DNA from: Candidatus Omnitrophota bacterium | GTDB taxonomy: Bacteria > Omnitrophota > Koll11 > Aquiviventales > Aquiviventaceae | DNA: 10,228 nucleotides | Assembly: GCA_023247285.1 (NCBI GenBank) | Contig: JAHFGU010000042.1 | Span: forward strand, 1-10,228 | Direction: 5' to 3' | Position numbers and translations under genes: made by a program | Shown here: in pieces, positions 567 to 10,228 of the stretch | Layout: each line of letters starts with the position of its first letter | Position numbering within the stretch: position 1 is the first letter of the stretch | Notes under the pieces: generated by a model | Database searches by the model: none | What the model saw: the letters and a program-made list of their open reading frames with translations, nothing else | What the model was told of the DNA's origin: nothing

Positions 567-1571
567 CTACCGCTCCAGCCACGTCTGGCGGCACGAGTGG
601 CGTTCCACAAGCTTCGTTCCCAGCAGGGTTTTGGTCGGCTTGATCGCCTTGCCGCTCATATGCTTCATCAGGATGTCGGTGGCCAGCTCGCCGACCTGGC
701 TGAGCGGCTGCCACACCGTCGTGAGCGGCACCTTCGAGAACGAGGCGATGGGGCTGTCGTCGAATCCCACGACCGAGAGGTCCTCCGGCACGCGCAGCCC
801 CAGCTCGAGCGCGGTTTCAATCACGGTGACGGCCATCTCATCGCTGGCCGCGAAGATGGCGGTGGGACGCTGGGGATGCGTGAGCAGCCGCCGCGCCGGC
901 TCGCGCGCGGAGGCCCCGGTGTAGTCGCCGCGCTGCACGAAGTGGGGCTTGACCTCGAGCCCCTTGGCTTTCATCGCCTTGAGGTAGCCGTCCAGCCGCT
1001 CGATCCCGCAGGGGGTGCGCAGGTGGCCGGTGACGGTGGCAATCTCCCGGTGGCCCAGGGACACGAGGTACTGGACCACCGCTTCGCTGGCCGTGCGGTT
1101 ATCCACCGCCACGCAGTTGACCGGCAGCTCCTTGATGTAGTGCACCATCACCGCGCAGGGCACGTCCTGGTCGAGCACGGCATCCAATTGCTCCTCGTTG
1201 CCGTCGATATCGGCGAACAGGATCCCCTGCACTTGCGTGAGGTCAAGGAACGAGCGGCCGTCCGTGATGTGCAGCAGCAGGTTGAGCTTCAGCCGCTCGA
1301 CCGCAGTGCCGATGCCCTTGAGCAGCTCGGAGACGTGGAAGGAGTGGAACATATCGGCGAACCGGGGGATGACCAGGCCGATCGTATCGAGGCGCCCGGA
1401 GGCCAGCCGGCGGGCGTTTGGATTCGGCCGGTACTTCAGGCGCGTGATGGCGTCCAAGACGCGGCGGTGATTCTCCGGCGAGACGGTGGTCACCCCGTTG
1501 ATCACGCGCGAGACGGTCGTGGTCGACACGCCGGCGGCCTTGGCGACTTGCGCGATATCGACGCGCGTCAT
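567..1571 (-). CDS. LacI-family transcriptional regulator
   Basis: A 334-residue protein, the usual length of the family. Residues 3-26 form the N-terminal helix-turn-helix (VDIAQVAKAAGVSTTTVSRV, then INGV), with the family recognition-helix pattern TTTVSRV. NARRLASGR at 52-60 is the hinge helix, with the leucine (L56) that members wedge into the minor groove. TIGLVIP at 63-69 starts the periplasmic-binding-protein-like effector domain. Family landmarks follow: AIFAASDEMA and VPEDLSVVGFDDSPIA, then TTVWQPLSQVGELA near the C-terminus. It should act as a dimer in the cytoplasm and usually answers to a sugar or nucleoside; the effector cannot be told from sequence. It starts 24 bases after the second secretin with no terminator between, so it is probably on the pilus-type transcript, which is unusual for a LacI regulator. 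The oxidoreductase downstream is the other candidate target. The start has GAGGAT 9 bases upstream. Confidence 0.95.
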   Translation of the reverse strand: MTRVDIAQVAKAAGVSTTTVSRVINGVTTVSPENHRRVLDAITRLKYRPNPNARRLASGRLDTIGLVIPRFADMFHSFHVSELLKGIGTAVERLKLNLLLHITDGRSFLDLTQVQGILFADIDGNEEQLDAVLDQDVPCAVMVHYIKELPVNCVAVDNRTASEAVVQYLVSLGHREIATVTGHLRTPCGIERLDGYLKAMKAKGLEVKPHFVQRGDYTGASAREPARRLLTHPQRPTAIFAASDEMAVTVIETALELGLRVPEDLSVVGFDDSPIASFSKVPLTTVWQPLSQVGELATDILMKHMSGKAIKPTKTLLGTKLVERHSCRQTWLER

Positions 1572-1595: not shown

Positions 1596-3179
1596 CTAGA
1601 ACTCTGGAGGCTCTTGCCGAGCGAGCTGTGACGCGGAGGAGTTCAGCAGGCGCGCGGTGACGAAGATGAGGAGGTTCGACCGCTCGACCGACGTGTCATC
1701 CTTGCGGAACAAGGGGCCCAGCACCGGCAGCGAACCGAGCACCGGTATTTGGGTCCGGGTTTTGGCCGTCGTGTCCTTCATGAGCCCCCCGAGCATGACC
1801 GTTTCCCCGTTCTCGATCACGACGCTGGTCTCGAGCTCGCGCGCGGTGAAGCGCGGCAGCGTCACTTCCCCGCCGAAGCTGTCGTCCGTTTTCTTCTCGC
1901 TGACCTCCGGCTTCAGCGCCAACGTGATGGTTTTTTGGTCCTGCCCCACGCTGGGGGTGACGTGCAGCATGATCCCCAGGTCTTTCGTGAGGAAGCCCTG
2001 CGGGACGTTGACGAACCGCGTTTCCTTCTTGCCGCTCACGGTGTCGAGGAAATCCCCGTCGCCGTTGAGATCCTCGCGCACGACCGAGGGCTGATAGCGC
2101 GTGGCGTACACGAACTCGGTCACGATCTTGATGGTGGCCGTCTGGTTGTTCAGCGCGGTCACGCGCGGCGCCGAGAGGGTCTTGGTTTTCTTGTTCTGCG
2201 CCAAGGCGTGCAGCACCGCCTGGTACTGGGTGCCAGTCAGGATCCCCTGCAGCGTGAGATTGAGGCCGTTGCCTGCGGTCTGGTTCGTGAAATCGGTGAA
2301 GTCGAACTTCGAGCCGCGGGCCAGCGTCGTCCCGGTGCTGGAGAACTGCAGCGAGGGGGCCTGGGTCGAGCCGTCCGGCGCGTCTTTCTTGGTCAGCGCC
2401 GCGTTGCCCGTCAGGGCCGCGTCAAACCCCCACTCGGCGGTATCGGTCATCGTGACTTCGATGAAGCGGGCCTCGATGAGCACCTGCTGCGGCAAGACGT
2501 CCAGCTCGGCCACCAGCCGCTCGATCTGCTGCAGGTAGTAGGGCGCGTGCGTGACGATGAGCGAGCCGCTGCGCTCGTCGAGCAGCATCGAGCTGCTCCC
2601 GACCTTGGGAATGACCTCGTCCAGCACGTTCTTGATGGTCTTCATCTCGCGCAGCGCCGTGGCCTGCAGCGCCACACTCTCGCGCGTGTCGGCCAGCGGC
2701 TCGAACGACGCCGACAGGCCAGGCCCTTGATTCAGCGCGTAGACCCGCGTCTCCATCGGCTCGGCGTCCATCTCATCCCGCGTGGCGATCCACAGGGCAT
2801 CGCCATCGAGGCGATAGAGCAGCCCCTGGCCTTTCAGGAGATATTCCAGCGCGCGGAAGAGCGGCATCTCCACCAGATGGATGGTCACCGGCTTGGCCAG
2901 CTCCTTCGCTTTTTCGGAGAGGAGGATGTTGAGCTTGGCGCTGTCCGCCAGAAAGCTCACCGCTGCCGCGAATTCCACCTCGGAAAAATCCGCGGTGACC
3001 GGCTGCAGCAGACGCTCGCGCAGCGTCATCTCCGCCGCGGACCCGACGGCAGGCGGGTCCTGCGGCCGGATCGCAGCGGCGACCACCGGCTGCGCCATGG
3101 CCGGCGGCGCCTGCGCCCCGGCTACCAGCGCGGCAACCAGGAGTGCCATGGCCCGGCGCGCGGCGGCACCCGCCGTCAT
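1596..3179 (-). CDS. Short secretin (GspD/PilQ family), second of a tandem pair
   Basis: A 527-residue outer-membrane secretin subunit. Residues 1-29 are a signal peptide (ARR, hydrophobic MALLVAALVAGA, cleavage after AMA before Q30). Residues 62-134 resemble an N0/STN domain, with the ending LYRLDGDALWIAT. Residues 143-230 form an N1-like ring domain (DERSGSLIVTHAPYYLQQIERL). From 231 the secretin core begins with QVLIEARFIEV and holds KTLSAPRVTALNNQTA, VMLGGLMKDT and the closing IPVLGSLPVLGPLFR followed by SNLLIFVTARLL. An acidic DxNxDGDxxD loop lies at 370-379. It lacks the coiled-coil/TPR front end of its neighbour. The ATG is one base after the stop of the larger secretin (TGATATG) and has no Shine-Dalgarno site, so it is probably translated by coupling. 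It may mix with the larger subunit in one ring, form its own channel, or cap a stack (inference). Confidence 0.93.
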   Translation of the reverse strand: MTAGAAARRAMALLVAALVAGAQAPPAMAQPVVAAAIRPQDPPAVGSAAEMTLRERLLQPVTADFSEVEFAAAVSFLADSAKLNILLSEKAKELAKPVTIHLVEMPLFRALEYLLKGQGLLYRLDGDALWIATRDEMDAEPMETRVYALNQGPGLSASFEPLADTRESVALQATALREMKTIKNVLDEVIPKVGSSSMLLDERSGSLIVTHAPYYLQQIERLVAELDVLPQQVLIEARFIEVTMTDTAEWGFDAALTGNAALTKKDAPDGSTQAPSLQFSSTGTTLARGSKFDFTDFTNQTAGNGLNLTLQGILTGTQYQAVLHALAQNKKTKTLSAPRVTALNNQTATIKIVTEFVYATRYQPSVVREDLNGDGDFLDTVSGKKETRFVNVPQGFLTKDLGIMLHVTPSVGQDQKTITLALKPEVSEKKTDDSFGGEVTLPRFTARELETSVVIENGETVMLGGLMKDTTAKTRTQIPVLGSLPVLGPLFRKDDTSVERSNLLIFVTARLLNSSASQLARQEPPEF

Positions 3180-3180
3180 A

Positions 3181-5616
3181 TCACGTGGTCGGCCCGCGCG
3201 GCATCAGCAGGCGCGCCGTAATGAAGATGAGCAGGTTTTTGCGCGTGCTGGAATTTTCGGTCTGGCGGAACAACGGCCCCAGCAGCGGCAAGTCGCCGAG
3301 CACCGGAAGCTTGGTCACGGTTTTGGCCGTCGTGTCCTTCATGAGCCCGCCGAGCATCACGGTCTCCCCATCCTGCATGACCGCGCTGGTCGTCAGCTTG
3401 CTCAAGGTGAACTCCGGCACCGACACCCCGCCCCCGAGGTCGCGAAATTGGCTGAACGCGCTGACCTCAGGCGCCAGGACCAGGGTGATCGTCTTCATGT
3501 CCCGCCCGACGCTGGGGGTCACATTCAGCAGGATGCCGATGTCGCGCTTCTGGAGGTCCTGCGGCACATTGGCGAATTCCGTCTCGCCGGCATCGTCGAA
3601 GTCGCCGTCGCCGTTGATGTCGAACTGGACCAGGGACACCTCGTACCGGGTTGGGTAGTTGAATTCCTCCACGACCCGGATGAGGGCGGTTTGGTTGTTC
3701 AGCGTCGTCACGCGGGGCGCCGAGAGGGTCTTGGTCTGCTTGGATTCTTTCAACAGGTGCAGCACCGACTCGAACTGGACGCCGGTCAGCACGCCTTCGA
3801 GGGTCAGGTTCAGCCCCTCGCTTTCGCGGGCCATGGCCGGGAACTTGAAGCCCGCACCCTTGGCGATCTGGTGGCCGGGGCCGTGGCTGTTTTCAGGCGT
3901 GACCTGCTTTGTCAGATCGACGGGGTTGTTCAGCACCGTTTCGAGGCCGAGGTGCTCCAGGTCGGTCGCCGTCAGCTCAATGAAGCGCGCTTCGATCAAG
4001 ACCTGGATGGGCGTGATGTCGAGCTGGGAGAGCAGCCGCTCGATGCTGGCGAGATTGTCCGCGGTGTTCGTCACGATGACCGCCCCGCTGCGCTCATCCA
4101 CGATGAACTTGCTGTCCGGCGGCTGGGGCGTCGAGTCCTGGATGAGCTTGGTGATGGATTCCATGGTCAGCGCCGGGTTCGGCTCCACTGCCGAGGTTTC
4201 CAGCGCTATCGGGCCCAGGCCGTTGTGCAGGAAGAACACCCGGGTTTCCATCGGCTCGTTGGAGAATTCCTCGGGCGTGGCAATGAGGATCGCGTCCTGT
4301 TCGACCCGGTAGGCCAGTGAAAGGCTCTTGGCCAGGTACTTGATGGCGTGCTCCAGCGGCAGCTGATCCACCTTGAGGGTCACCCGGCGGGTTTTGAGAT
4401 CTAACTGGGGGGACGGGATGATGCTGACGTTGGCGGTGTCGCTGAGAAAATCCAGCACGTCGATCAGCGCCACGTCGTTGAACTCGAAGCTAACCGGCTC
4501 GCGCAGTTTGGCGCTGACCCCCGGAGCGCCCTGCTGGAGCGTGGCGGACCCCCTATGCAGCGGAGGCAACGGGGGCAGCACCTGCGCCTTGAGCACGTCG
4601 TTGATCATCGCCTTCTCGTCACGCTCGATCTGCCGGGTGGTCCGGGCCTTCGCATCGTCCAGCTCGGCGAGCTTGACCTGCTCGAGCAGCTGCTGCGCCT
4701 CGCGGTTGCCGGGGTTTTGGACCAGCACGGCGGTCAGCAGCTTCGCGGCCAGCTCGTATTTGCGGTCCGCCAGGGCGTTCTTGGCGTACTTGATTTCCGT
4801 CTCGTGCTCGATGCGCTTCTGGACCAGCTGCTGCTCCAGGTCAGGCATGATCGCCCCGTGGGTTTCCGGCGCTTCCGCGCTGGCGCGCAGCCGCTGCTCG
4901 AAGCGCTTGAGGTCGGCCTGGGCAATGAACTGCTGCGCGGTCTTCACGAGGGGATGAGTCGGGTCAATGAGGGCCACCTGCTGGAAGAGCTCGACGGCCG
5001 CGGTGTAGTTGCCGCGGTTATACTCGGCGAGGCCCTTGCTGTAGAGCGCCTTCAGCTGGCGCTCGCGGGCCACCTGGAGCTGCCGCTGGGCTTCGCGGGA
5101 CCGCTCGACTTGCTGCCGCAGCTTTTCGCGTCCAAGCTGAATGGCCAGCTGCTGGGCTTCCAGCCGGAGCTGCTCGCGCTTGTGCTCTGCCTCGAGGCGG
5201 CGGCGCTGCTCGTCTCGCTCAGCGATCTGGTGCTGGCGTTCCGCGTCAGCTCCTCGGCGCTGCGCTTCCCGTTCAGCCGCTGCGCGCTGACGCGCGGCTT
5301 CTCGATCTGCTGCTTCCTGCTGCCGCCGCGCGTCGCGCTCGGCGGCCTCGCGGCGGCGCTGCTCCTCTTGCGCTGCGGCTTCGCGCCGCTGTTGTTCAAG
5401 ACGCGTGCGCGCCTCTTCCAGCAATTGTTTGGCCCGCTCGGCAAACCCTGTCTCGCCGGCGCGCGCCTGGGACTGAGCGGGCGCGGCCTGATCATCTGAC
5501 CTCGACGTGGCATCCGGCGCTTCCTGCTTGGCGGCCTGGTCGATCTTCCCTGCCCAGGCAACCCCGGCTCCCAGCAGCAGACTGAGCCCAACCAGAAGCC
5601 TCCGGGGGATGCGCAT
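3181..5616 (-). CDS. pilQ: Large PilQ-like secretin with N-terminal coiled coil and TPRs
   Basis: An 811-residue outer-membrane secretin. Residues 1-22 are a signal peptide (RIPRR, then LLVGLSLLLGAGVAWA, cleavage before G23). About 57-190 is a highly charged Glu/Arg/Gln/Ala coiled coil. TPR-like helix pairs follow at 188-222 (GLAEYNRGNYTAAVELFQQV) and 268-301 (ALADRKYELAAKLL). An N0/STN-like domain lies at about 373-447, an N1-like domain at 455-535 (DERSGAVIVTNTADNLASIERLL), and the secretin core at 536-803 (QVLIEARFIEL, KTLSAPRVTTLNNQTA, VMLGGLMKDT, LPVLGDLPLLGPLFR, NLLIFITARLL). Coiled coil plus TPR before the channel is not the classic PilQ layout with AMIN domains, but recalls the secretin of the Akkermansia pilus cluster (from memory). 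An acidic DxNxDGDxxD loop is at 666-675. It starts 5 bases after the coiled-coil gene, with no good ribosome site at normal distance, so coupling is likely. The symbol is by role and position. Confidence 0.93.
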   Translation of the reverse strand: MRIPRRLLVGLSLLLGAGVAWAGKIDQAAKQEAPDATSRSDDQAAPAQSQARAGETGFAERAKQLLEEARTRLEQQRREAAAQEEQRRREAAERDARRQQEAADREAARQRAAAEREAQRRGADAERQHQIAERDEQRRRLEAEHKREQLRLEAQQLAIQLGREKLRQQVERSREAQRQLQVARERQLKALYSKGLAEYNRGNYTAAVELFQQVALIDPTHPLVKTAQQFIAQADLKRFEQRLRASAEAPETHGAIMPDLEQQLVQKRIEHETEIKYAKNALADRKYELAAKLLTAVLVQNPGNREAQQLLEQVKLAELDDAKARTTRQIERDEKAMINDVLKAQVLPPLPPLHRGSATLQQGAPGVSAKLREPVSFEFNDVALIDVLDFLSDTANVSIIPSPQLDLKTRRVTLKVDQLPLEHAIKYLAKSLSLAYRVEQDAILIATPEEFSNEPMETRVFFLHNGLGPIALETSAVEPNPALTMESITKLIQDSTPQPPDSKFIVDERSGAVIVTNTADNLASIERLLSQLDITPIQVLIEARFIELTATDLEHLGLETVLNNPVDLTKQVTPENSHGPGHQIAKGAGFKFPAMARESEGLNLTLEGVLTGVQFESVLHLLKESKQTKTLSAPRVTTLNNQTALIRVVEEFNYPTRYEVSLVQFDINGDGDFDDAGETEFANVPQDLQKRDIGILLNVTPSVGRDMKTITLVLAPEVSAFSQFRDLGGGVSVPEFTLSKLTTSAVMQDGETVMLGGLMKDTTAKTVTKLPVLGDLPLLGPLFRQTENSSTRKNLLIFITARLLMPRGPTT

Positions 5617-5621
5617 GCGCG

Positions 5622-7325
5622 CTACTTGGCTGCCTCCGAAGGCTGCTGCTGGTTGGCTTTGTCAGGCTGCTGCAGCTGGGTTTCGTCGGGCTGCTGCAGT
5701 TTGGCTTCGTCGTCGACAACTTGCTGAAACAGCAGCATGGCGTGCTCGTAGTCGCCGCGCTGGAAGACGGTCATCGCGTTGGAAAACAGCCGCCCCACCC
5801 GGGCCGCATCCTGTTTGCGCATGGCGGCAGTCTTGGCCGCGACCATGTCATCCCGCAGCGTCTTGATGCGCGCCGCCTGCGCGGTGTCGTCCGCCTGCGC
5901 TTGGACCTGCTCCAGCGTACGCACGGCCTCATCGAACTGCCCGCGGCTGCCGAGCTCATTCGCTCGCGCGATGCCCTCTTCGATCCGCTTCGCCAGGGCC
6001 TGCGCTTCCTGCTGCTGCCGCAGCCGGTTGCGCTGGTATTGGAGCTCGAGGGCGCGCGAGAGCTGCAAGGCGAGCTGCCGCTCTCGCAGCACGCGGCGCT
6101 GCTCTGCGAGCTGGCGCTCCTGCCGGATCAGGGCAGCCATGCGCTGTTGGAGCGCTTCCAGGTCGGCGGCGATTGCCGGCGGCAGCGATGGCAGCGCTTG
6201 GCCCAACCACGCCAGGGCTTGCTCATTGTCGGAGGCATGCGGGTTCTGCAGGGCCTGCTCGAGCCGTGTGAGCGACGCGTCGCGCTGCCCGTGGAGATCC
6301 TTCACGCGCTGCAGCGCGGCCTCGAGCCCGCGGGCCGTATCCTCGGCGCGGGTCTTGAGCAGCGCATGGTGCTGCGTTGCCGTCATCCGGCGGTGATCGA
6401 GGTCCGCGAGCCGCTCGCGCGCCAGCGTGACCTGGGCATCTTCCTGTTCGCCGGTTTTGTGAAGCAGGTCTGCCATGCCCGAGCGCAGGCTGGCTTCTTT
6501 CAAGGTCAGCCGCCGCGCCGACTCGGTCGCGAATTGTTCCTGGAGCTTGGCGGCGAAATCTTGGCGCACGCGCGCAAGCTGGGCATCGCGTTCGCTTTCC
6601 AGCCGCGTGCGCTGCAGCTCCACCTCGCTCTCTTTCTTCTTCTTCACGACCGCCTCCTTGAGCGATTGCTGGATCGAAAGCGCCATCTGCGCATCCAGCC
6701 CGAGCCGGGAAAATTGGCTGCCGAGATTGTCGGTCAGGACGGAGAGTTCCTGCGTCGCCTGCTCGACCTCGCGCTCTTTGGCTACCAGGCCTTTGGTTAA
6801 GGCGGCGGTGATCGCTTCGGACTGGTGCGCCTGAAATTGCTGGACCTGCCTGGCGAACTCCTCCTGCTGCTCTTGGGTGATCGTCTGGCGCGCCTCAGCC
6901 AGCTGGCGCTCCAGCTTGGCTTCAAGGTTCTTGTGCAGCGCAGTGACGCGCTCGCGCGCCTGGCTATCCAGCGCGCTGAGCTCCTGCGCCTGCCGCTCGT
7001 GCTGCTCATCCAAGAGTTGCACCTCGCTGGCCGCGGCAGCGAGCTTGGAGGCGAAATCGTCATGCTCAATGCGGAGGCGGCGCACCGCCTCTTCGGTTTC
7101 AAGGCTGGTCTGCGCAACCTGCACCACCATGCGCAGCGTGGGGGCAATCGTTCGCGCTTCAGGGGGCACTTGGAGCAGGAAGGCCGGGGAAGGGGGCGGA
7201 TCACTTGCCGCGCTGTCCGCGGCCTGGGCGATGCAGGGCGCTGCGGCAAGCGCGGCAGCGAGCAACGCCCATCTCAATGGATCCTGATACGTGCAGCACA
7301 CTCGGCTCCGCTGCAGAGCCTTCAT
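5622..7325 (-). CDS. Unassigned periplasmic coiled-coil/TPR protein between pilP and pilQ
   Basis: A 567-residue protein I do not recognise as a named family. Residues 19-35 look like a signal peptide core with cleavage after AQA. C31 is not in a proper lipobox because P30 precedes it, so a lipoprotein is unlikely. Residues about 75-355 and 385-455 are long Gln/Glu/Arg/Ala-rich coiled coils, joined by a Pro-containing break near 360-385. TPR-like helix pairs follow at 448-481 (RGQFDEAVRTLEQV) and 509-540 (AMTVFQRGDYEHAMLLFQQV). The last of these closely matches the first TPR of the secretin encoded next (GLAEYNRGNYTAAVELFQQV). The tail is three 8-residue QQP repeats. The frame is open back to 7433, but ATG 7325, 16 bases after the pilP stop with AGG 7 bases upstream, puts the signal peptide near the N-terminus. 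It may be a periplasmic scaffold or secretin partner (inference). Confidence 0.85.
   Translation of the reverse strand: MKALQRSRVCCTYQDPLRWALLAAALAAAPCIAQAADSAASDPPPSPAFLLQVPPEARTIAPTLRMVVQVAQTSLETEEAVRRLRIEHDDFASKLAAAASEVQLLDEQHERQAQELSALDSQARERVTALHKNLEAKLERQLAEARQTITQEQQEEFARQVQQFQAHQSEAITAALTKGLVAKEREVEQATQELSVLTDNLGSQFSRLGLDAQMALSIQQSLKEAVVKKKKESEVELQRTRLESERDAQLARVRQDFAAKLQEQFATESARRLTLKEASLRSGMADLLHKTGEQEDAQVTLARERLADLDHRRMTATQHHALLKTRAEDTARGLEAALQRVKDLHGQRDASLTRLEQALQNPHASDNEQALAWLGQALPSLPPAIAADLEALQQRMAALIRQERQLAEQRRVLRERQLALQLSRALELQYQRNRLRQQQEAQALAKRIEEGIARANELGSRGQFDEAVRTLEQVQAQADDTAQAARIKTLRDDMVAAKTAAMRKQDAARVGRLFSNAMTVFQRGDYEHAMLLFQQVVDDEAKLQQPDETQLQQPDKANQQQPSEAAK
5641..5712 (-). 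repeat. Three tandem 24-base repeats at the 3' end of the coiled-coil gene
   Basis: Units at 5641-5664, 5665-5688 and 5689-5712 share GGCTGCTGC at their plus-strand start. Units two and three are nearly identical. Read on the minus strand they encode DEAKLQQP, DETQLQQP and DKANQQQP, an in-frame 8-residue repeat just before the C-terminus. Because the unit is a multiple of three, copy-number changes would lengthen or shorten the tail without breaking the gene. Confidence 0.85.
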
Positions 7326-7341
7326 GCGCGGCCTGCCCTGT

Positions 7342-7866
7342 TCACGGCTTGACTTCTGGTTGAGCCAATGATAATACCACCTCCTTGTTGGATTCTGCGT
7401 CCGATAATACCACTCGGTTTTCTTCGATGTCAAGCACTTTGAACCCTGTAACTTCTTGTCCGACTTCGAGAAAATACGTCTTCTTTACCGCGGCGTCTTC
7501 CAGAATTGCTCGGGTGCGCGTGCCCATGTTGATGCGGCCCTTGTAGACGAACTGCGGTGCCGGCGGCAGCCCGGCCGAGGGTCCGGCAGCGGCCCCGGTG
7601 GTGCGTGCCTGGGCCGCCGCAGCGCGCCGCGATGACGAGAACGGATTTGCCTGCACCGCTTTGTCAAGCATCTGGCTGGAGAGTGCCGGGGCATCTCGCA
7701 CCGTTTCGTCGGTCGGGTATTGCTGGGTCACCAGCTCCCATGCCTCCGGCTTGATCTCGTCGCGCGTGCCCTTCGCGATGCCGCGCTGCCAGGACCAGAC
7801 CCCGCCTGCCGCCAACGTCAAGAGGAGCGCCATGGCCATGGGAGTCAGAGGGGAGTCCGCGTTCAT
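7342..7866 (-). CDS. pilP: PilP/GspC-like inner-membrane connector protein
   Basis: A 174-residue protein. Residues 8-25 are a single N-terminal membrane segment (TPMAMALLLTLAAGGVWSW) with a short cytoplasmic end. A linker contains NPFSSSRR at 74-81, like the NPF/DPF motif before the homology region in GspC and PilP proteins. An Ala/Gly/Pro-rich stretch follows. Residues 105-168 form the small beta-rich domain (FVYKGRINMGTRTRAILED, LEVGQEV, FKVLDIEENRVVLSD) that in PilP and GspC contacts the secretin N0 region. True PilP is usually a lipoprotein; here the membrane anchor is GspC-like and no lipobox is seen. The start overlaps the stop of the PilO-like gene as ATGA. The last 120 or so bases are markedly less GC-rich than the rest. 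Assignment rests on fold pattern plus position between pilO and pilQ. Confidence 0.82.
   Translation of the reverse strand: MNADSPLTPMAMALLLTLAAGGVWSWQRGIAKGTRDEIKPEAWELVTQQYPTDETVRDAPALSSQMLDKAVQANPFSSSRRAAAAQARTTGAAAGPSAGLPPAPQFVYKGRINMGTRTRAILEDAAVKKTYFLEVGQEVTGFKVLDIEENRVVLSDAESNKEVVLSLAQPEVKP
7370..7413. repeat. 11-base direct repeat flanking a perfect anti-Shine-Dalgarno complement inside pilP
   Basis: GATAATACCAC occurs at 7370-7380 and again at 7403-7413 (plus strand), encoding VVLS twice on the minus strand. Overlapping the first copy, the minus strand reads AAGGAGGTG (7386 to 7378), a full complement to the 16S rRNA tail. No ATG or GTG lies at a useful distance after it. The TTG at 7368 is in the pilP frame 8 codons before its stop. 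It may be chance, or a ribosome loading or pausing site ahead of the next gene. Confidence 0.5.
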
Positions 7867-8741
7867 CGGGCGGGCGCGCGCTCCGTGGTCCGGCTTGCAG
7901 GCCGCTCCGGTTTCGCGGGTCCTGAAGGTTTCGGCCGCCCCTCGATGCGCCCGCGGCTTGTCGGCGGCTTCGCGCGCGGGGCAGCGGGTAGCGTGCTCGC
8001 GTCGTTGGCCGCCGCACCCGAGACGAGATACCGCCCCAGCAGCAGATCGGCGTCGAGGTCGCCGGCGTCCGTAGCACTGAGGCGCAGCGACAGCAGGTCC
8101 ATCATGGGCGTGGCGCGCTGTGCTGCCGCGAGCGTTTTCATCATGTCCGTCAAGGAGCCGGCGAAGCGCACGCGCACCGGCAGCTGCGTCAGAAAGGGAC
8201 CGCCCTCGCCTTGTTCGAACGCGGCCGTCGGATCCTCGATCTTCATCGAGGCCACGCGCTGAAGGCCTTGCGCGTACAGCAGCTCCGTCGCGTCCTGCAT
8301 GAGCGCCAGCTGCGCCAAGAGCCGCGGCACCGCATCCGGCGGCGGCAGGTCTTTCGGCAGGCCGAGGACCTCCGGCGGCTGCGCGCCGCGCGCCGTCGCC
8401 AGCCGCTCAATGGCGCGCTGCACTTCGTGGACCTGCTGCTGGAAATAGAGCTGCGGGTCGGCCTGCGCGTCCTCGGCCAGCGGTGGTGCGGCGACGACGG
8501 CCAGCCAATGCTGGTAGCGCCGCTCCAGCGCCGCGTGCCGGGCCGTGAGATAATTCATGACCTCCTGGTTGGGCGGGATTCCGCCGGTCAAGGTCAGCTT
8601 TTTCAAGGTGGCGCGCGTGCGCTGCACCTGGAGATCAATCTGGCGCAAATGGACCTGCCAGACCGCCACCGCCATGAGGGCTGCCACGACGCCGCCGGCC
8701 ACCGCCGCCCCGGCAGACAGCGCGCCTCGCGAGGCGCTCAT
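7863..8741 (-). CDS. PilO-like inner-membrane pilus protein, resembling the Amuc_1100 family
   Basis: A 292-residue protein. Residues 10-29 are one membrane segment (AGAAVAGGVVAALMAVAVWQ) after a short basic N-terminus. Residues about 32-118 are helical and suited to a coiled coil. LGLPKDLPPPDAVPRLLAQL at 127-146 and the following LLYAQGLQRVASMKIEDP recall the Akkermansia Amuc_1100 protein (from memory, not a search). Residues 186-242 (PVRVRFAGSLTDMMKTLAAA, LDADLLLGRYLVSG) fit the ferredoxin-like domain typical of PilO and GspM. The last 50 residues are a basic Pro/Ala/Arg-rich tail, probably disordered, not usual in PilO. The ATG overlaps the stop of the PilM-N fusion as ATGA, with GAGGAG 11 bases upstream. 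In the PilMNOP platform PilO pairs with PilN through the periplasmic domains. Here the partner would be the C-terminal half of the fusion (inference). Confidence 0.82.
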   Translation of the reverse strand: MSASRGALSAGAAVAGGVVAALMAVAVWQVHLRQIDLQVQRTRATLKKLTLTGGIPPNQEVMNYLTARHAALERRYQHWLAVVAAPPLAEDAQADPQLYFQQQVHEVQRAIERLATARGAQPPEVLGLPKDLPPPDAVPRLLAQLALMQDATELLYAQGLQRVASMKIEDPTAAFEQGEGGPFLTQLPVRVRFAGSLTDMMKTLAAAQRATPMMDLLSLRLSATDAGDLDADLLLGRYLVSGAAANDASTLPAAPRAKPPTSRGRIEGRPKPSGPAKPERPASRTTERAPAR

Positions 8742-10228
8742 CGCGCCGCCGGCTCCTCGACGGAGGGTGGACGCAGCGCGCGCTGCACTTGCACATTGAA
8801 CGCGATGGATTCCCGATCCCCCTCTTTCAGCACCGTGGTGGCCAGCGGCTTCACCGTGGTCAGGCCCGCGACACTCTTGAGCCGCTCGAAAAATTGCGTC
8901 ACCTCCTGGAACGTGCTCGCCCGGCCCTCAATCTGCCCTTCCAGCAGCGTGGCGGTCTTCGTCAACTGGACCGTCGTCAGCCACGCGGCATCCGGGAGGG
9001 CCTCGATGATCTTGACCAAGAGCTGCCCTGCGACCGCTGATTCGAACGCGGCCCCTTCGAGCTGGCTGGTGCGATCATAGAGATCCTGCTGCCGCTGGAG
9101 CAGCGCGCGCAGATCCGGCCGCAGCGATTGGTAGAGCTGCTCGCGGCGCGCCAGCACCTCGAGGACGCGCGCGCGCCGCCGCGTAATCCCCATCATCCCG
9201 ACCAGGCCGAAGACGAGTGCCGCCCCTGCCGCCAGCCCGGCGATGAGGTTCGCGAGGCGCCGCAGGCGTTCGGCCCGCGCCGCGTGCTGCTGGATCGCAA
9301 GCAGATTGAGCGGCATGCGCACGGGACCTGCGGCCTGAAGCGCCAGCCCCAGCGCCGCCGCCCAGCGCTGCGGCTCGCCCAGCCGCGTCCCGCTAGCCTG
9401 CACCATTGGCGGCGGCTCGAACCGGCGCATGGGGGTGGCGATCTGCGCGACGATCCTTGGCTCCAGGGCTTGCCACACGCCCGGATCGCCGACGACCCAG
9501 ATGACCTCTGGCATCGTGGAGAGCTGTCCCCGGAGGCCGTCCCACGCCGAGGCCGTTTCGGCGGCCAGCCCTGAGGCGTCCGCCGCTGAGACCGGGACGA
9601 CCGCGAGCCCGGCTTCCGACCAGACGATCCACTCCGCCGCCTCCGCGCCGAGCAGATGCAACAGCGCAGCTGCGGCGGCGCGCCCGGCCGGCGCGCGAGC
9701 CAGCGCCGCGTTCACGAGGGCCAGCGCGGTAAGCGAGACGGCAGCGACAGGCAGCTCGGCGTGGCGGCAGGGCCCCAACCGCTCCTCGAGGATGCTCCGG
9801 CGCACCGCGCCCACCACGGCGCTGGGGCTGGCGGATCCTCCGATGACGCCCGGGGGTGCTGACGTCCCTGGGCTGCCGAGGAGCCGATCCGTCCACGCGC
9901 GCGCGCGCGAGAACAGCGAGGGCTCTGCCGCGCCATCGAGGCCGATCCATTGGTAGTGCCAGGCCGCCTCGGCGAGCTCAAACGGCACGACCTGCTGCAG
10001 CTCGAACTGGACGCCGTACTGCGCGCGCTGCGCAGAGACCAGCATGGGGGTGACGACGGTGAGGATCGCGGACGTGCTGGGCAGGCCGAGCACGACGGGG
10101 GCGCCGCGCGGCAGGCGGCGCCGCAGTTGCATCAGCGGGTTGGCCAGCGCAGCCGGATTGGAGGCGTCACACGCGATCTCATGCGCGCCGCGGAGGATGG
10201 TGGCTGACCCTGTCCGTTCAAGGATCGC
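8738..10228 (-). CDS. PilM-PilN fusion (GspL-like) of the inner-membrane assembly platform, partial at the right edge
   Basis: The frame is open to the right edge (32 codons before the Met at 10132), so the N-terminus is missing. Numbered from that Met, 10-63 matches PilM: VVLGLPSTSAILTVVTPML, then YGVQFELQQVVPFELAEAAWHYQWIG. VIWVVGDPGVWQALEPRI at 210-227 and RWAAALGLALQ at 256-266 match the PilM C-terminal lobe. MPLNLLAIQQ at 273-282 is the PilN N-terminal peptide (INLLP-type) that normally docks into PilM. A membrane segment follows at about 294-314, then a coiled coil (316-360) and a PilN ferredoxin-like domain (375-452). PilM and PilN are usually separate genes; the fusion recalls GspL of type II secretion. 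The actin-fold phosphate loop looks degenerate (LLGAEA in place of DIGA). It heads the cluster as seen here; promoter and earlier genes lie outside the window. Confidence 0.9.
   Translation of the reverse strand, partial: AILERTGSATILRGAHEIACDASNPAALANPLMQLRRRLPRGAPVVLGLPSTSAILTVVTPMLVSAQRAQYGVQFELQQVVPFELAEAAWHYQWIGLDGAAEPSLFSRARAWTDRLLGSPGTSAPPGVIGGSASPSAVVGAVRRSILEERLGPCRHAELPVAAVSLTALALVNAALARAPAGRAAAAALLHLLGAEAAEWIVWSEAGLAVVPVSAADASGLAAETASAWDGLRGQLSTMPEVIWVVGDPGVWQALEPRIVAQIATPMRRFEPPPMVQASGTRLGEPQRWAAALGLALQAAGPVRMPLNLLAIQQHAARAERLRRLANLIAGLAAGAALVFGLVGMMGITRRRARVLEVLARREQLYQSLRPDLRALLQRQQDLYDRTSQLEGAAFESAVAGQLLVKIIEALPDAAWLTTVQLTKTATLLEGQIEGRASTFQEVTQFFERLKSVAGLTTVKPLATTVLKEGDRESIAFNVQVQRALRPPSVEEPAAR
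8753..8758 (-). promoter_or_regulatory. Shine-Dalgarno-like GAGGAG before the PilO-like gene
   Basis: GAGGAG on the minus strand, inside the 3' end of the PilM-N fusion, 11 bases before the ATG at 8741. The spacing is long, so coupling through the ATGA overlap probably matters more. Confidence 0.35.

Follow-up and report, generated by a model that had tools for sequence, protein, structure and literature searches.

A conserved tandem pair of complete secretins with two types of gate hairpin in Omnitrophota

Two complete secretins, encoded one base apart on a contig of Candidatus Omnitrophota bacterium, are kept together in many related genomes, and their most consistent difference lies in one place, the hairpin of the lower central gate. 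This consistent two-gate-type difference between the members of a coupled secretin pair is what is new here. We call the two proteins L and S, in the order in which they are read, and the window is the whole stretch of DNA analysed, 10,228 nucleotides long. The two very probably form a functional pair serving one machine, of a type II/Amuc_1098-like kind, in Omnitrophota; that they assemble together in one ring is a conjecture drawn from sequence comparisons, which we put forward tentatively.

Two complete genes

The S gene (1596..3179, minus strand) encodes 527 amino acids, with an apparent signal peptide, N0 and N1 domains and a full core, and without TPR; its gate is of the type that we call beta. 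The L gene (3181..5616, minus strand) encodes 811 amino acids, with an apparent signal peptide, a coiled coil, TPR-like helices, N0, N1 and a full core, and a gate of the alpha type. Both signal peptides were judged by eye only. The reading frames are open, with a single base between them, and the Secretin family PF00263 scores 131.9 bits on S and 131.5 bits on L, against a gathering cut-off of 27.5; Secretin_N is also above its cut-off in both. The STN (N0) domain reaches its cut-off in S only, L having a sub-threshold FecR_C match at that place, and the N0/N1 region is folded with high pLDDT in the models of both. The two cores share 46% of their residues over 491 positions (E 6e-126), far more than chance would give.

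The front end before N0 is found in L only: the model shows a long N-terminal helix, residues 61-200, followed by helical pairs at 204-346. In the profile search, the TPR matches in L are below cut-offs, and S has no TPR match. An earlier note, made from the letters of the window alone, had described two complete secretins one base apart, a coiled coil and TPRs in one member only, and no sign of a pseudogene; this picture is confirmed, with TPR-like helices in place of clear TPR matches. We reject a pseudogene for either member: neither reading frame is interrupted, and the two cores evolve slowly, with mean distances over 14 genomes of 0.41 and 0.45. The LacI-family (0.49) and BioU-like (0.39) genes are about as slow; distances of the comparison genes come from stop-to-stop frames in 8-12 genomes and are inflated, which makes the contrast with L and S a rough one.

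The models are of moderate quality (pLDDT 64 for S and 73 for L), Foldseek TM-scores are low, and only strand limits were read off them. The best Foldseek match of both is the Vibrio PilQ structure 6w6m; it likewise ranks first by sequence for S, and is the best secretin match of L. Curated subfamilies are another matter: S and L score 197.1 and 159.0 on TIGR02515 (type IV pilus PilQ, cut-off 284.35), 191.5 and 183.4 on TIGR02517 (type II GspD, cut-off 351.35), and 182.7 and 139.2 on NF042912 (the Amuc_1098 family, cut-off 750). All three curated cut-offs being missed, L and S are filed in none of these subfamilies.

The pair in related genomes

Those relatives found by the L and S searches that carry an organism name belong to Candidatus Omnitrophota, and the adjacent locus tags A3C53_02045/02050 and HY598_03595/03600 already show the pair in this group. 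A scan of a genome collection gives 77 loci, several of the closest coming from groundwater bins; in the closest loci, one HMM each for L and S finds L followed by S. Among 28 genomes of the order of genome G004, 17 contain S (E up to 1e-90), and all of these 17 also contain L. The two are neighbours on one contig in 14 of them; in G012, the contig of S starts with the tail of L, and in G007 and G016 both genes lie at contig ends.

The same question was put to 384 genomes sampled from the class. The family is present in 52, with both members in 36 and one member in 16, these counts resting on at most three scored candidates per genome (seven in another scan), so that further members could be missed. 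Adjacency is seen in 34 of the 36 genomes with both members; in G178 and G213, the start of S falls at a contig edge. The order and class surveys rule out a single-genome oddity. They also answer the check proposed by the earlier note, whether relatives keep the pair together, and neither of the contrary outcomes that it had named occurred: S is not confined to one genome, and it is not the case that the two members never occur together. One bin, G010, holds two L-S pairs on different contigs (L011 and L005), both with a LacI-family gene after them. Another secretin family, of about 400 residues, also forms tandem pairs in the same class, at G092:C12:10027-12188 and G145:C99:9291-11347.

The 16 genomes with a single member group together: 14 rows form a group with support 96/93 in the core tree, and G057 and G086 fall in the corresponding 10-row group, with support 98/93, of a second tree. 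Their reading frames are of at least 800 residues in 14 of the 16, the other two being cut by contig starts, and TPRs are shown in the single secretin of G082. From these long frames and TPRs, the latter known also from Amuc_1098, the long front end is probably ancestral. Giant single secretins of 2,096-2,333 amino acids also exist (L181, 5695-12687; G022 and G057), and the one that was scanned is TPR-rich.

Across the 34 loci, the ATG of S begins between -4 and +10 nucleotides from the stop of L in 26, with a four-nucleotide overlap in 11 of these; the start codons are predictions, and the remaining eight loci include cut or doubtful starts. A crude Shine-Dalgarno core precedes S in 5 of the 26. 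With such spacing, L and S are probably translationally coupled. A promoter-like site (TTGACA, 18, TATTAT; 11/12) lies at 7404-7433 on the minus strand, at the 3' end of the PilP-like gene and upstream of both the coiled-coil gene and the two secretin genes, and given this site, L and S may have a transcript of their own.

Two types of gate

The lower gate hairpin of L spans residues 652-692 (3541..3663, minus strand), with an acidic DINGDGDFDD loop and a short, alpha-type tip; that of S spans residues 357-397 (1989..2111, minus strand), with an acidic DLNGDGDFLD loop and a longer, beta-type tip. In relatives, first members have VQFDINGDGDFDDAGET-type hairpins and second members have VREDLNxDGDFxDxVxGxxETRFVN-type hairpins. 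Measured at S numbering 358-399, the gate segment is 38 residues long in each of the 34 first members (18/18 in the clade of the window, 16/16 in a second clade, clade B) and in 15 of 16 singles; it is 42-46 residues long in 31 of 33 second members (17/19 and 14/14, respectively). The DxNxDG-type motif is present in 81 of the 83 rows of the gate comparison, and has no match in the classical-type secretin of G004.

The location of the hairpin comes from a profile alignment, in which the stretch after S residue ~357 is left opposite residues 445-462 of Vibrio PilQ. According to the available text of PMC7545093, the lower gate hairpin of that protein holds S448 and S453, both within 445-462, and the function of the corresponding part of XcpD as a gate is described in the portion of PMC10550240 at hand.

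Similarity scores of the gate segment follow type rather than lineage. Writing A for the window clade, B for clade B, and 1 and 2 for first and second members, with groups of 14 and 11, the scores are 4.06 for A1-B1 and 3.21 for A2-B2, versus 2.54 for A1-A2 and 2.67 for B1-B2. Outside the two clades, the first member of G046 has an alpha gate and the second a beta gate; the second member of G027 has an alpha gate, and the first is of neither type; neither gate motif is found in a pair from Auribacterota. In G037, front end and gate type are combined the other way round: a 1509-residue TPR protein carries the beta gate, and a 521-residue protein the alpha gate. By segment score, the gates of both G037_1 and G046_2 are nearest to the beta type. 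The earlier note had located the difference between the two secretins in their front ends: this is true of the pair in the window, but with the swap in G037, and with TPRs in both members of the Auribacterota pair, it is the gate hairpin, and not the front end, that differs most consistently.

The neighbourhood and the machine

On the minus strand, the genes of the window follow each other in the order PilM/PilN-type, PilO-like, PilP/GspC-like, coiled-coil/TPR-like, L, S, LacI-family and BioU-like. The PilM/PilN-type gene (8738..10228, minus strand), cut by the window end, has a PilN match and a weak match to the Amuc_1101 family; the PilO-like gene (7863..8741, minus strand) is recognized by position and size, with no relevant Pfam or NCBIfam family; the PilP/GspC-like gene (7342..7866, minus strand) shows weak GspC matches, and its product is a candidate link from the platform to the secretin. 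The gene directly upstream of L (5622..7433, minus strand) encodes a coiled-coil/TPR-like protein whose true start is probably an ATG near 7324, judged by eye, and whose relatives are found in some loci only. A tRNA search gave none, and the plasmid comparison gave no near match.

The earlier note spoke of a pilus-type operon, but the system is nearer to a type II/Amuc_1098-like one than to a classical pilus. Upstream genes in G004 include T2SSF, a pseudopilin (N_methyl) and T2SSK above cut-off, and T2SSJ below; in G003, they include T2SSK and an Ig-like protein. The window ends before type II genes of the G004 kind, and its own GspC-like match is weak. In G004 and G015, the two genomes opened, a separate pilus-type cluster lies ~23-26 kb downstream, with its own secretin (identified by Pfam in G004) and, by eye, PilC-, pilin- and PilM-N-O-P-like genes; the GspE-type ATPases of G004 are in this cluster. 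Since the pilus cluster is separate, the system of the window is probably a type II/Amuc_1098-like machine, and not the classical pilus cluster. GspE is found in 6 of 24 single-secretin loci (G160, G241, G308, G311, G362 and G380) and in none of the 33 two-secretin loci, in both cases within the limited stretches fetched, and no second PilMN, PilO or PilP gene is seen beside a pair in the fetched loci.

A LacI-family regulator (567..1571, minus strand) lies directly downstream of S in the window, and where the contig continues beyond S, such a gene follows in the window clade (16 loci) and in clade B (13 loci). It also follows the single long secretins of G022, G057, G082 and G102, and is therefore present also without S; none is found at G027, G037 or the Auribacterota pair. 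The LacI-family and BioU-like genes are separated by a short gap, and several inverted repeats within it and next to it (442-552) are a possible operator or terminator. In several relatives, the LacI-family gene is followed by BioU-like, aminotransferase, AAA_26 (BioD-like), coiled-coil, EPSP synthase, MreB, MreC and PBP genes (L003, 12433-21488).

History of the two genes

The core tree contains 61 of 92 cores; the Auribacterota pair, and rows that were partial or nearly duplicated others, make up the 31 left out. The two members of the pair group together in the window clade with support 96/96, in G037 with 93/92 and in G027 with 99/91; in the second tree, the Auribacterota pair groups with 100/100. 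In clade B, first and second members form two separate groups whose sister relation is without support, the second members standing apart at 91/88 in the second tree.

Topology tests used 48 rows, without G027, G037 and G046. Forcing the second members of both clades together is disfavoured for the whole core (AU 0.042, a value that carries an IQ-TREE warning of too few replicates); this same-type joining is rejected for the barrel (AU 0.021) but not for the N part (AU 0.19), where the lineage tree is better by 11 log units, a difference that is not significant. Site by site, the signal for joining the second members comes from the gate and from several N-part stretches, and that for grouping by lineage from most of the barrel; the fully diagnostic columns number 6 for each topology. 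Segment scores outside the gate follow lineage in clade B, G037 and G027, but not in the N0 and N1 domains of the window clade, where A1-A2 is below A1-B1 (1.63 vs 2.48, and 1.88 vs 2.15). In barrel A, A1-A2 exceeds A1-B1 (2.09 vs 1.99); in barrel B, it again exceeds A1-B1 (2.87 vs 2.72) but is below A2-B2 (2.98).

The DNA similarity of the two genes was compared within and between genomes, in samples of 13 and 12 genomes. In clade A, it is 0.590 within versus 0.580 between (permutation p 0.0005), and 0.572 versus 0.543 at synonymous third positions (p 0.001); in clade B, the values are 0.616 versus 0.613 (p 0.07) and 0.488 versus 0.470 (p 0.0085). In clade A, one block, S 440-480, is conspicuous (0.682 vs 0.656, p 0.0015), as one of 20 tests there. 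Strong recent gene conversion is rejected: the within-genome excess is small, and much of it can be due to a shared base composition. We also reject mirror-tree co-evolution as a signal specific to the pair, since other neighbour genes correlate as well: distances of L and S correlate with r 0.74, those of L with PilMN, PilO, PilP, Ig and GspK at 0.73-0.94, and the partial correlation of L and S is 0.72, versus 0.71 for L-BioU and 0.87 for S-GspK.

Two histories fit these data: either the gene duplicated once, long ago, and the barrels were then kept alike, or it duplicated repeatedly and the gate type was regained. We favour one old duplication, because four lineages (the window clade, clade B, G046 and G037) have the longer gate with its similar motif.

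One ring or two

The best reading is that L and S are an old pair with a single platform gene set. The translation of S would depend on that of L, both being made together, and the two would insert in the same outer-membrane channel as a mixed ring. The TPR/coiled-coil part of L would provide arms extending to the inner-membrane platform or the peptidoglycan, or acting as a built-in pilotin; the two gate types would together seal the pore, possibly tuned by the binding of cations to the acidic DxNxDG loop; and S, having no front end, suggests that such a ring would need fewer arms than gates.

The barrels of secretins are sheets shared between neighbouring subunits. Parts that fit each other should therefore stay matched, the gate and the front end being allowed to differ, and co-assembly predicts that the barrels of a pair evolve alike while their gates differ. 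The barrel test, the single platform set and the touching start and stop codons point to co-assembly, without proving it. However, 16 of the 52 family-bearing genomes manage with one secretin. Similar barrels would also result from repeated duplication in which the gates converged, or from gene conversion between genes whose products do not co-assemble. Also against co-assembly are the segment scores of the window clade, which show no lineage rule, the within-genome DNA similarity only slightly above the between-genome one, the two separate groups formed by the members in clade B, and the equally high correlation of L with neighbouring genes. We consider rather unlikely the stronger claim of an obligate hetero-oligomeric secretin, kept across Omnitrophota with two kinds of gates in each ring and matched barrels, whose closure is perhaps cation-dependent through the DxNxDG loops.

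Nearly as likely as co-assembly are twin homomeric channels, and it is quite possible that a ring of L and a ring of S share one platform, or alternate on it, each with its own substrate or filament and a gate that fits its cargo. Each core is complete (N0, N1 and a full secretin domain) and could thus form a ring by itself; the consistently different hairpins, and the one platform gene set beside the pair, are in keeping with this. However, separate channels do not require touching or near-touching codons, nor joint retention in clades A and B, and they leave the lineage grouping of the barrels unexplained.

A recurrent, lineage-specific tandem duplication of a TPR secretin, kept for dosage or partial redundancy, with the second gate type arising by convergence or by exchange of the gate segment, seems improbable to us. 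It would account for the four pairs that group in trees, and for the rejected joining of second members in the whole core and in the barrel. It sits badly with the similar longer gate of the window clade, clade B, G046 and G037, with the gates of G037_1 and G046_2 being nearest to the beta type, and with the unsupported sister relation in clade B; G027 is a poor fit, its first member being of neither type. Finally, S could hardly be an assembly or plugging subunit (a decoy, a cap or a transient partner of L) that does not line the pore: its lack of a front end, and the rhizobial type III pair RhcC1/RhcC2, in which one of two neighbouring secretin genes is truncated according to the available part of PMC3459982, suggest the idea, but S has a full secretin domain, N0 and N1, and a core about as slow as that of L, unlike the truncated RhcC1.

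Comparison with known systems

In 27 genomes of the class of a Marinobacter (G388), none of 73 secretin matches lies within 4 kb of another, judged by eye, in agreement with the earlier statement that such loci normally encode one secretin. Among 29 genomes of the class of a Spartobacteria genome (G386), a tandem pair of full secretins is found in 2, G386, chosen for having one, and G434; G387 is a third case. Tandem secretins are rare in these samples, though not unique to the Omnitrophota group. Outside Omnitrophota, tandem pairs of two long secretins are seen at L030, L035 and G434, those of L030 (Spartobacteria) being 860 and 948 residues long.

Literature searches on such a pair (Omnitrophota with secretin, pili or tight adherence; two secretins, paralogues, hetero-multimers) gave, by title or start of abstract, no report among the matches listed, with subscription journals little covered; nor is there, by title among the matches listed, a bacterial-secretin paper offering a precedent for a mixed ring. 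To our knowledge, secretin machines are rings of one subunit. A pair conserved with two gate types would lend itself naturally to two questions: how a giant pore stays sealed, and whether subunits that have TPR arms can share a ring with others that lack them. It also offers a way into a secretion or pilus machine of Omnitrophota.

Pseudomonas aeruginosa has two GspD-type secretins, XcpQ and XqhA, both able to use one platform; unlike L and S, they are not known to form a coupled tandem pair. With PilQ of type IV pili (6w6m, 4av2) and GspD of type II systems, L and S share N0 and N1/N3-type domains, a barrel and a gate, but they differ in forming a tandem pair, in the acidic DxNxDG loop of the gate hairpin, and in their scores below the TIGR02515 and TIGR02517 cut-offs. 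In the available text of PMC4960237, Amuc_1098, the PilQ of Akkermansia, is a 907-residue protein with three TPRs fused to a secretin, and the TPRs are likened to pilotins. L resembles it by a front end with TPR-like helical pairs, and the window resembles its cluster by the PilM/PilN-type neighbour that weakly matches the Amuc_1101 family; unlike it, L and S reach only 139 and 183 bits against the cut-off of 750, and the same text mentions no second secretin. The nearest precedent among the matches listed is RhcC1/RhcC2: as far as the available part of PMC3459982 goes, rhizobia also have two secretin-family genes per system, there of type III, but RhcC1 has lost a large C-terminal part and RhcC2 comes from a Tad locus, whereas L and S are both complete paralogues.
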